Source: an uncultured Pelagibacteraceae bacterium
GTDB lineage: Bacteria > Pseudomonadota > Alphaproteobacteria > Pelagibacterales > Pelagibacteraceae
Assembly (NCBI GenBank): GCA_902524545.1
Contig: CABZDW010000005.1
Location: forward strand, 1-64,000
Length of the DNA stretch: 64,000 bases
Direction of reading: 5' to 3'
In this document: positions 54,888 to 57,777 of the stretch, in pieces
Position numbering within the stretch: the first letter of the stretch is position 1
Layout: each line of letters opens with the position of its first letter
Made by a program: the position numbers and the translations under genes
Notes under the pieces: model-generated
The model's input: the letters and a program-made list of their open reading frames with translations, nothing else
Told to the model about the DNA's origin: nothing
The model's database searches: none

Positions 54888-55259
54888 ATGACAAATTTTG
54901 AAAAAGTAGGGATTTTTATGAAAACTTTTGGTCAAGACATTAAACACAGTTCCTCATTTAGTACTGATGAGATAAATGAATTAAGAGTAAGTCTTATTAA
55001 AGAAGAACTTGACGAATTAATAGGCGCAATGAATAAAAAAGATTTAGTCGAAGTAGCTGATGCACTAACCGATATTCTCTACGTTACATATGGTGCAGGA
55101 CATGCATTTGGTATAAATCTTGATGAATGCTTTGAAGAGGTTCAAAACTCAAATATGAGTAAATTAGACAAAGATGGCAAACCTATTTATAATGATAAAG
55201 GTAAAGTTATGAAGGGTTCTAATTATTTTAAGCCAGACTTGAGTAAATTTATAAAATAG
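54888..55259 (+). CDS. MazG/PRA-PH-like nucleoside triphosphate pyrophosphohydrolase
   Basis: RVSLIKEELDELIGAMNKKDLVEVADALTDILYVTYGAGHAFGINLDECFEEVQNSNMSKLDKDG. Confidence 0.85.
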   Translation: MTNFEKVGIFMKTFGQDIKHSSSFSTDEINELRVSLIKEELDELIGAMNKKDLVEVADALTDILYVTYGAGHAFGINLDECFEEVQNSNMSKLDKDGKPIYNDKGKVMKGSNYFKPDLSKFIK

Positions 55260-55260
55260 G

Positions 55261-55281
55261 AAGGGGCGTTCTGTTGCCCGG
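55261..55281. repeat. tmRNA 3'-end-like repeat R1
   Basis: aaggggcgttctgttgcccgg; 20/21 identical to R3. Confidence 0.85.
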
Positions 55282-55404
55282 CATTAGATTAAAAGTAGCA
55301 TATTTGCTTACTAATTAAAACTACTTCATTGCAAACTTCATTGCCAGAACGACATGTTTTCTTTTCAGTTGGTTTTATTCTTTGGTACTTCGTTGTAAAG
55401 TTAA

Positions 55405-55737
55405 TTAATCGCTGTTCCAAGTAAATAAATCAGCATCAAAAGGTATGTTTCTAAATTTAAGTAAGATTTTATATTTTTCTAATCTTTCTTCTTTCTTAAA
55501 TTTTTTTAAGTAGTTGAGTATTTGATCATAGGTCAAACCCTTTAAGTATTTCTTTTTAACATCAACATACTCTTCATAATCCAAACCACATATAGAGAAT
55601 TTTTTTTTAGGATCTATATGTTCAGCATAACTTATTGTGTTTTCAGTTTCGCTAAGGACATCATAAAAATGAGCGATCTGATTTTTTCTTTCAAAGAGAA
55701 TATCTCTCCTGAAATCAAATAGTTCTTGTTGTTGCAT
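55405..55737 (-). CDS. Hypothetical protein between tmRNA 3'-end repeats
   Basis: 110 aa ORF, no recognised family. Confidence 0.5.
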   Translation of the reverse strand: MQQQELFDFRRDILFERKNQIAHFYDVLSETENTISYAEHIDPKKKFSICGLDYEEYVDVKKKYLKGLTYDQILNYLKKFKKEERLEKYKILLKFRNIPFDADLFTWNSD

Positions 55738-55811
55738 ATTTTGGAGTTAGTAAAGTTTTGAAAATTAACTTTAACAATTTAAACTTTATTAAATAAAAGT
55801 GTCAGAATTAA

Positions 55812-55837
55812 GGGGCGTTCAGTTGCCAGGTGCCCAG
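55812..55837. repeat. tmRNA 3'-end-like repeat R2
   Basis: aaggggcgttcagttgccaggtgccc; 25/26 identical to R3. Confidence 0.9.
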
Positions 55838-55841
55838 ATCT

Positions 55842-56507
55842 TTAAAATTTCTTTCCTAAATTTTTGTTATATATTGGTTTTTGCCCATATTTACTCACAT
55901 GTACTTTTAATGAGATATTCTCAAATTTTTCTCTATCGTTTTTATCCTCAACCAATGAATATTCAATTTTTTTAACCTCACTAATCCATGAGGACTTTTC
56001 TGGTGCTTTAAATCTTTTTTTCAGATTTCCAATTCCAATATAAATTATATTATTATCATTATTAAGATATCTATATATACATTGAACATCATCTAAGTTT
56101 TCAGGAGAACAAGAACTTTCAAAATTAGGTATTACTTGGAAAAAATACATACTGTTATTCTTATCATATTCAAGATTAAACCTTCTTTGTTGCGCAGTTA
56201 AACTTTTATCATTTTTTATCTCTTTTAAAATATCGTTACTATTAATAAAAAAACCCGCTTTGACAGTACGATTAAAATTTTTTTTAGAGTGACCCTGAAG
56301 TTCAAAACATGACTCAGAATTATTTTCTGGAAAACCTACATAGAATTTAAATTTATTTTCAGTGTCCTCACCGAATTCAACAAATTTATTTTTTCCTAAG
56401 TTGTTATCTTTAATAAATTTTGCAGAAAAACCAAATCCCTGAGAGGAAATCGACAAGTAATGATCAAATCTACTCGTATGTGGTGGTACAAATATTTTAA
56501 CTCCCAT
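55842..56507 (-). CDS. GIY-YIG domain protein (start taken as MGVKIF, not the longer ORF that runs into tmRNA)
   Basis: C-terminal CIYRYLNNDNNIIYIGIGNLKKRFKAPEKSSWISEVKKIEY. Confidence 0.7.
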   Translation of the reverse strand: MGVKIFVPPHTSRFDHYLSISSQGFGFSAKFIKDNNLGKNKFVEFGEDTENKFKFYVGFPENNSESCFELQGHSKKNFNRTVKAGFFINSNDILKEIKNDKSLTAQQRRFNLEYDKNNSMYFFQVIPNFESSCSPENLDDVQCIYRYLNNDNNIIYIGIGNLKKRFKAPEKSSWISEVKKIEYSLVEDKNDREKFENISLKVHVSKYGQKPIYNKNLGKKF

Positions 56508-56523
56508 ATTTAACTCCTTTAAA

Positions 56524-56550
56524 AAGGGGCGTTCTGTTGCCAGGTGCCCC
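56524..56550. repeat. tmRNA 3'-end repeat R3 (3' end of the intact tmRNA coding piece)
   Basis: aaggggcgttctgttgccaggtgcccc. Confidence 0.9.
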
Positions 56551-56692
56551 AAACCCCGTTTGCCTAATTAACAAAGTTAATTAAGCAGCAAGTGCGTAAC
56601 TTTCGTTAGCAATTATAAATTAGCCCTTTACGGAGGAACAATTCCGAACGAAAGAATAGCCTTTAGTCACTCGTCGAATCTAGTTCACCCCC
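56526..56692 (-). ncRNA. ssrA: Two-piece (circularly permuted) tmRNA: coding piece, tag ANESYALAA
   Basis: 5' GGGGGTGAACTAGATTCGACGAGTGACTAAAGGC; tag ORF GCTAACGAAAGTTACGCACTTGCTGCTTAA at 56581-56610 (minus); 3' hairpin GGGGCACCTGGCAACAGAACGCCCC. Confidence 0.93.
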
Positions 56693-56704
56693 ATAAGTTG
56701 TAAA

Positions 56705-56772
56705 TGGTGGAGGTGGTGGGTACTGCCCCCACGTCCGCAATGGTTATTACGAAATTCGTTTATCGTCATAGT
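56705..56772 (-). ncRNA. ssrA: Two-piece tmRNA: acceptor piece ending in CCA (5' boundary approximate)
   Basis: GCGGACGTGGGGGCAGTACCCACCACCTCCACCA; CACCTCC pairs with GGGGGTG of the coding piece including a G3-U pair; about 12-nt intervening segment. Confidence 0.88.
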
Positions 56773-56826
56773 TGGAAAACCAACTTTATTAATATAAAAG
56801 GAATTGTATTAGATTCAATAACAATC

Positions 56827-57777
56827 ATGAAATTAACGCAAGAACAACAAGCAGAGATTAAAAACCAACAATCCCAAAGTAAAAATACTAAAAGAGTTAC
56901 TGTTCCAGAGTTAGAAAAAATTTTATATGAGGCAATTCCAGCATTAGATCATGGTTTTGTAAGAGTAATTGATTATATGGGTGACGATACTTCTATAGTT
57001 CAGTCAGCTAGAGTTTCATATGGGAAGGGTACTAAACAAGTTTCAACAGACTCTGGTTTAATAAAATATTTAATGCGCCATTGGCATAGTACACCATTTG
57101 AAATGTGTGAAATAAAATATCATGTTAAATTACCAATATTTATTGCACGTCAATGGATAAGACATCGAACAGCTAACGTTAATGAATACTCTGCGAGATA
57201 TTCAATTTTAGATAAAGAGTTTTATTTACCCTCAACCGAAAATCTAGCTGCACAATCTACTAGTAATAGACAAGGGAGGGGAGAAATCTTAGAAGGTGAA
57301 CAAGCCCAAGAAGTTTTAGAGCTTCTAAAGAGTGATGCTGAAAGATCTTATACGAATTACGAAACAATGTTAAACCAAAAATACGATGGCTCAACGATTG
57401 ACGAAAATAAAAAAGGTTTAGCAAGAGAACTAGCGAGAATGAATTTAACTTTAAATACCTACACTCAATGGTACTGGAAAACGGACTTATTAAATTTAAT
57501 GAATTTTTTGAGGTTGAGAGCGGATCATCATGCTCAATATGAAATTAGAGTGTATGCAGATATAATGTTAGATACTTTAAAAAGGTGGGCACCAATCACA
57601 TATGAGGCATTTATGGATTATAGGGTTGGTGGAACGGAAATTTCTGCAAAGGGAAAGGAAGTTATTAAAAAATTTATTCGTGGTGAAGATATTGATATTG
57701 CCAACTCTGGTTTGTCTAGAAGAGAGTGGAATGAACTAATGTTAGCTTTTGAATTAAAAGACAAATTAGTCAAATAG
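56827..57777 (+). CDS. thyX: FAD-dependent thymidylate synthase (true start likely 56827, not 56704)
   Basis: ThyX motif [19 protein letters not shown]; longer ORF start overlaps the tmRNA acceptor piece. Confidence 0.95.

Follow-up and report, generated by a model that had tools for sequence, protein, structure and literature searches.

Tandem copies of the tmRNA 3' end in a SAR11 genome: probable attachment sites of small, non-autonomous elements

The closest described relatives of the locus considered here are the ssrA islands of Dehalococcoides, some of which have no integration module and may rely on their neighbours to move (PMC3146451). Like them, the SAR11 units occur in tandem downstream of ssrA, in a small genome, between direct repeats of the ssrA 3' end of ~20 bp. 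The Dehalococcoides islands are larger, are inserted at the T-loop, and depend on a serine recombinase, whereas the SAR11 units are mostly shorter than 2 kb, occupy the non-tRNA-like end of a permuted gene, and are associated with a tyrosine integrase. The 2003 survey by Williams of elements in tmRNA genes reportedly includes permuted cyanobacterial ssrA. Those elements, too, use the non-tRNA-like 3' end created by permutation, but they are cyanobacterial; the target here is alphaproteobacterial, and carries large arrays whose units have no integrase. Additive flexible genomic islands with tRNA-end repeats, such as those at tRNA-Lys in Methylopumilus (PMC10872708), are a further comparison; their target is a tRNA, and the accessible part of that account describes neither arm repeats nor one-gene cassettes. 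Integron cassettes likewise form one-direction arrays of short units, some with a single gene, that end just before a folded recombination site. Here, however, there is no linked integron integrase, the site is the tmRNA end, the genes of most units point the opposite way, and the armed ends are like those of phage attP. The core has no attC boxes that can be made out by eye. Phage satellites and tycheposons are likewise small, sit at RNA genes, carry defence cargo and either have a linked integrase or depend on a helper, but most SAR11 units have no integrase, and packaging and satellite genes are absent among the matches listed. We regard the array as a new variant, in that its target is a permuted alphaproteobacterial gene, its units are small, some with a single gene, and it is frequent in SAR11. 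No earlier description of a tmRNA cassette array in SAR11 was found in the literature, as far as open papers go.

SAR11 bacteria, one of the most abundant groups, have tiny, conserved genomes in which mobile elements are few. If site-specific cassette arrays at the tmRNA gene are common, they would give these cells a route of gene gain and loss, including that of restriction–modification and defence-like cargo, and would explain a hypervariable spot. They would also provide a testable case of integrases that act on the non-tRNA-like end of a permuted tmRNA, with several types of arm site and one core. The array lies in a window of 64,000 nucleotides (the whole stretch of DNA analyzed) from a Pelagibacteraceae genome of the SAR11 group (assembly G000; 1.06 Mb in 27 contigs), and its features are collected in Table 1. 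We consider it very probable that the repeats are copies of an attachment site, produced as small, non-autonomous elements inserted site-specifically at the tmRNA's 3'-terminal hairpin, by means of an integrase supplied in trans. This is a reading of sequence, in which the recombinase activity is inferred. The locus works like a tyrosine-integrase attachment-site array.

Table 1. Features of the tmRNA locus (positions in the window)
Feature	Position	Strand	Basis
MazG-like/PRA-PH gene, chromosomal; abuts the tmRNA in empty sites	54888..55259	+	Pfam PF01503, E=1.2e-22
Type C element, third, truncated right end (arm + core), fused to P0001 cassette	55263..55408	-	
R1, distal core; only the last 17 bases are core (GGGCAACAGAACGCCCC); attR-like boundary with chromosome	55263..55287	-	
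Type C repeat CAATGAAGT, 12 bp from the copy at 55335..55343	55323..55331	-	read in sequence; conserved in type C ends
Type C repeat CAATGAAGT	55335..55343	-	read in sequence; conserved in type C ends
Type C repeat CAACGAAGT, outer copy	55387..55395	-	read in sequence; conserved in type C ends
P0001 cassette part of unit 2 (R2 core + P0001)	55397..55837	-	
P0001, 110-aa ORF of unknown family; recurrent cassette gene	55405..55737	-	
R2, second core copy, 2 changes in 25	55812..55836	-	
P0002, 221-aa ORF filling unit 1	55842..56507	-	translation
Ends of the P0002 unit: right end ...TTTTAAAGATC, left end TTTTTAAAGGAG			
ssrA, permuted two-piece tmRNA, tag ANESYALAA; integration target	56523..56822	-	Rfam RF01849, ARAGORN
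R3, tmRNA 3'-terminal hairpin GGGGCACCTGGCAACAGAACGCCCC; tmRNA-proximal attachment site (attL-like)	56526..56550	-	exact consensus
thyX, chromosomal flank on the other side of the tmRNA	56827..57777	+	Pfam Thy1, E=1.1e-54

The tmRNA matches the Rfam alpha_tmRNA model over its full length (positions 1–355; 225 bits). The final 25 bases of the permuted gene form the core of the repeat and, because the alpha_tmRNA consensus closes with the same conserved block, ACCuGGCAACAGAA, we assign the repeat to the tmRNA and take the other copies to be derived from it. The presumed attachment site is at the non-tRNA-like 3' end of the permuted gene and not at its CCA end, as the preliminary description of this DNA had proposed. 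Folded as RNA, the core gives a short hairpin with a GCAA loop (-13 kcal/mol). That three direct repeats of the tmRNA 3' end are present is borne out, on the minus strand, and beyond chance: the whole genome would by chance contain the 16-mer core 4.5e-6 times, and dinucleotide-shuffled windows yield 0.04 matches at up to three mismatches, against three observed. The repeats are real, and the contribution of chance is negligible. Their details need amending. In one register the copies begin at 55261, 55810 and 56524, and the spacings are 549 and 714 bp instead of ~551 and 712; and where one mismatch each to R3 had been reported, R2 has two, and R1 is the poorest copy, with one change among its 17 matching bases and flanking sequence unlike that of R2 and R3.

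In HTCC1062, the tmRNA lies between thyX and COG4696, in a single intergenic region of 217 bp (PMC2704228), and COG4696 is, on our reading, the window's MazG-like gene; the start of thyX given in Table 1 is inferred from the sequence and from the same paper. At two other loci (L186 and L206), the tmRNA has one core and the MazG-like gene is directly adjacent. The flanks of the window, when joined through one core, align colinearly to both over the whole stretch tested, from which it follows that the 1263 bp between the outer repeats are an insertion, and that the tmRNA site is polymorphic. Empty sites of this kind are what the preliminary description had suggested looking for, and the outcome it held would refute integration—the same three repeats in all relatives, without size polymorphism—is not what is found, for occupancy varies. 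Chromosomal right flanks of clusters d0, d1 and d4 occur directly behind the tmRNA at 34 loci (21, 11 and 2, respectively), and behind an element end at six (1, 2 and 3).

Each interval contains one minus-strand ORF, P0002 or P0001, as had been noted. P0002 starts 18 nt past R3 and stops 5 nt ahead of R2. It has no match in Pfam, NCBIfam or PDB and no homologue among the loci fetched, and only a weak, GIY-YIG-type match to an endonuclease family (phrog_3312; E=2.5e-4, residues 142–202). P0001 has no match in Pfam, PHROGs, NCBIfam or PDB; it recurs in seven other Pelagibacteraceae loci at 92–95% identity, and its cassette is 92–95% identical over 426–435 nt to those of L053, L214 and L160. Structure models of the two proteins have mean pLDDT values of 51 (P0001) and 32 (P0002). 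The unit between R2 and R1 is chimeric. The P0001 cassette accounts for the first 441 bases, and a type C right end for the final 145; the latter is 82–86% identical over ~145 nt to the right ends of L214, L029 and L043 and has an arm of the same kind as in other type C copies. Since unit 2 combines two such pieces, the window comprises the remnants of at least three non-autonomous insertions: one cassette each for P0002 and P0001, and the end of a type C element as the third. At L160 the series of P0001 cassette, core, 787-bp type C element and element end is still complete, and the order in the window looks like that of L160 after a deletion, although this is an inference. Two stacked mini-elements had been proposed earlier; the stacking stands, but the number does not, and R1 is the end of another type of element. 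We file the window units as non-autonomous because they lack an integrase. Of the marks by which ssrA islands are recognized, they have the repeat and the empty site, and do not have a cognate integrase within the element.

The window units were at first thought an oddity in a streamlined genome, but they belong to a system that is common in Pelagibacteraceae. Among 148 genomes of the order compared at the same threshold, two or more copies of the core occur in 53 of 107 Pelagibacteraceae genomes (described as near-complete), and in none of 41 from the sister family, by our count from the table; the sister-family genomes have one tmRNA core, of slightly different form. Loci were picked by exact match to the core, so its conservation among them is partly selected. 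All cores of one genome (G028) carry the variant of that genome's own tmRNA. In the fetched loci, neighbouring cores share one orientation in 73 of 73 pairs, and the 72 unique units range from 124 to 4556 bp (median 754 bp). Genes point only towards the tmRNA (backward) in 42 units and only away from it (forward) in 20, and in 17 of these 20 the stop codon is within 18 nt of the next core. The ends of backward-pointing units are often conserved, and ends A, B, C and F are common to many units with different cargo. The cargo includes restriction enzymes of the Tsp45I and DpnI types, methylases, MrcB_N/NOV_C and HNH proteins, and small unknown proteins. No integrase appears among the listed matches of the 87 unit protein families, and no packaging or phage-hijacking genes among the Pfam and PHROGs matches listed (25 families); most unit proteins have no match.

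When the 300 bases after each core are clustered, the same left ends recur behind the tmRNA, behind the right ends of other units, and behind pnp and rnhA, with homology starting at the core end. A cassette of 343–350 bp with a gene for a 68-aa secreted protein, for example, is behind the tmRNA in G014, behind a 63-aa ORF in the window's own genome (G000), and behind an element arm in G019. Chromosomal sites other than the tmRNA are also used. The window's own genome has a second three-core array on contig C9 (L008 8663, 9013 and 9778), which lies behind the 63-aa ORF and the 68-aa secreted-protein gene and adjoins sodB and an outer-membrane barrel gene, and a degenerate core 2 bases past rnhA on C10 (L009 4185). 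Cores 1–2 bases after the rnhA stop codon occur in several genomes (L009 4185, L023, L130, L194 and L217), and in some the rnhA-end core is an insertion site. An array of five cores on contig C12 of G028 (L040 8945–15978) has units that encode secreted proteins with near-identical signal peptides (MKKLLGI..LSSN), the rest of the protein seemingly exchanged.

Many of the larger units end in short, paired repeats. Pairs of 7-bp repeats, mostly 11 bp apart, occur in 16 of 44 right ends (0.3 expected) and 14 of 44 left ends (0 expected) of backward-gene units, and direct repeats common to the left and right ends are seen in 32% of units, but in 3.6% when ends are mispaired. The arm-like repeats at one end of a unit tend to be the same as those at its other end, and to differ among units, a layout that resembles that of integrase arm sites flanking an attP core. 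Since they have several different sequences, several integrases must be assumed. In the window, such repeats are confined to the type C remnant at R1, where they have no left-end match. The forward-gene cassettes of the window lack clear 11-bp arms, and so the case for their mobility rests on their relatives.

Integrases near the core were sought in 198, and then in 396, Pelagibacteraceae genomes. The preliminary description had found none, and there is indeed none in the window or near its tmRNA; the genome as a whole has only the Xer-like P0004. A single relative, G179, has an intact one: its tmRNA core is followed by arm repeats (TTGGCGTCATGGTGGCGTCA) and then by a tyrosine integrase, P0005, of 330–343 aa with the catalytic block HDLR...GHKDW...RY. 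The TTGGCGTCATGGTGGCGTCA repeat occurs also in the integrase-less units L043 and L201. The left end of L201, which has no integrase, is 84% identical to that of G179 over 93 nt, and diverges where the integrase starts. Remnants persist in two further genomes: a stump of ~41 codons behind the tmRNA of G161, and a broken copy behind a core, beside an element arm, in G337. The preliminary description had suggested looking for a distant integrase that could act in trans: the window's own genome has only P0004, without a core nearby, and a relative has an integrase at the tmRNA core. As the intact copy is so rare (1/396), the ssrA integrase is probably supplied transiently. Relatives of the G179 integrase sit at tRNA genes in other genomes; several of the other Pelagibacteraceae integrases are also at tRNA genes, and, apart from G179 and the two remnants, none is at ssrA. 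The empty sites, the variation in size, the mobility of the unit ends and the presence at this site of an element with an integrase agree in placing integration at the tmRNA 3' end. Small elements with an arm-type integrase also occur near tRNA-Met, tRNA-Arg and other genes in Pelagibacteraceae (L273–L279); they often encode an AAA/primase-like protein of ~480–690 aa, and are possible satellites.

Might P0004 itself be responsible, recombining at the core in the manner of an integron integrase with its cassettes, the phage-type integrases being incidental? We think this unlikely. P0004 (L228 8336–9313) is Xer/Cre-like, adjoins glycosyltransferase genes, and occurs in 99 of 107 Pelagibacteraceae genomes, most of which have no other tyrosine recombinase; the sister family, where multi-copy cores are absent, has nothing but distant XerC/D-like proteins; and many forward units consist of one gene between two cores, without arms. 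The co-occurrence of P0004 and multi-copy cores rests, however, on a single clade split. P0004 shows no arm-binding domain, whereas armed units carry element-matched arm repeats; there is no core near it, and in G179 an arm-type integrase is situated exactly at the tmRNA core. Against the integron integrase model (integrase_gron), P0004 scores 28.7 bits (cut-off 265), and it is unlinked to the arrays. Most Pelagibacteraceae have one divergent Xer/Cre-like recombinase and not a XerC/XerD pair, and many sister-family genomes have a XerC/D-like pair. Whether P0004 lies near the terminus could not be read from sampled GC skew in G012, which gave no clear terminus location. Exploitation of dif by Xer was set aside, the core being unlike dif (by eye only).

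Very improbable, in our estimation, is a dispersed family of terminators or hairpins spread by gene conversion. The core is a stable hairpin and often follows a stop codon by 0–18 nt, including those of chromosomal rnhA and pnp, but whole units move with it, their boundaries coincide with it, the arrays are uniform in orientation, the arms match, and there is an integrase at the site. Nor does the core belong to a terminator family unrelated to ssrA, a finding that would have refuted the earlier proposal, for it lies within the conserved alpha_tmRNA 3' end. Homologous recombination between short repeats, or faulty assembly, is scarcely credible as the source of the arrays, for although most of the genomes are drafts assembled from single cells or metagenomes, many assemblies made independently, the one-contig genome G102 among them, agree on these structures, while homology starts at the core end and the core is, as is generally known, too short for ordinary RecA recombination.

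If the repeats are attachment sites, as we prefer, a tyrosine integrase of the P0005 type would come from an autonomous element or from a phage infecting the cell, act in trans, and recombine the core of a circular unit with that of the tmRNA. No unit was seen as a circle. The tmRNA 3' end would be restored, a second copy of the core would be left at the far side, and repeated rounds would stack units in one orientation; excision of a gene flanked by two cores would yield a one-gene unit. The scheme builds on what can be read in the DNA (repeats, empty sites, shared unit ends, uniform orientation, matched arm repeats, and the G179 integrase with its remnants), and strand exchange by P0005-type integrases, their action in trans, and the origin of one-gene units by excision between cores are inferred. 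A broader proposal, which we put forward tentatively and regard as doubtful, is that SAR11 maintains an integron-like cassette economy, in which the tmRNA, rnhA, pnp and a handful of further genes have a shared 25-bp hairpin site at their ends, and genes between cores are excised by integrases acting in trans and pasted behind the tmRNA. Were it true, ordinary chromosomal genes would become one-gene mobile cassettes in otherwise streamlined genomes.

Viruses were searched as well. The core has no match in INPHARED phages; the arm sequences A and F and the F repeat block have none in viral contigs, and relatives of the integrase gave one weak partial match there. Viral contigs that do carry the core were rejected as leads, as the matches were accounted for by tmRNA genes of phages and, in GC-rich contigs, by chance. 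The Melnitz-like phages (PMC9004378) are the comparison for phage contigs with the tmRNA hairpin. A group of IMG/VR phage contigs (L090–L097) has the same tmRNA 3' hairpin, and in the two that were scanned, L091 and L095, a complete permuted tmRNA with the tag ADENLALAA was called.
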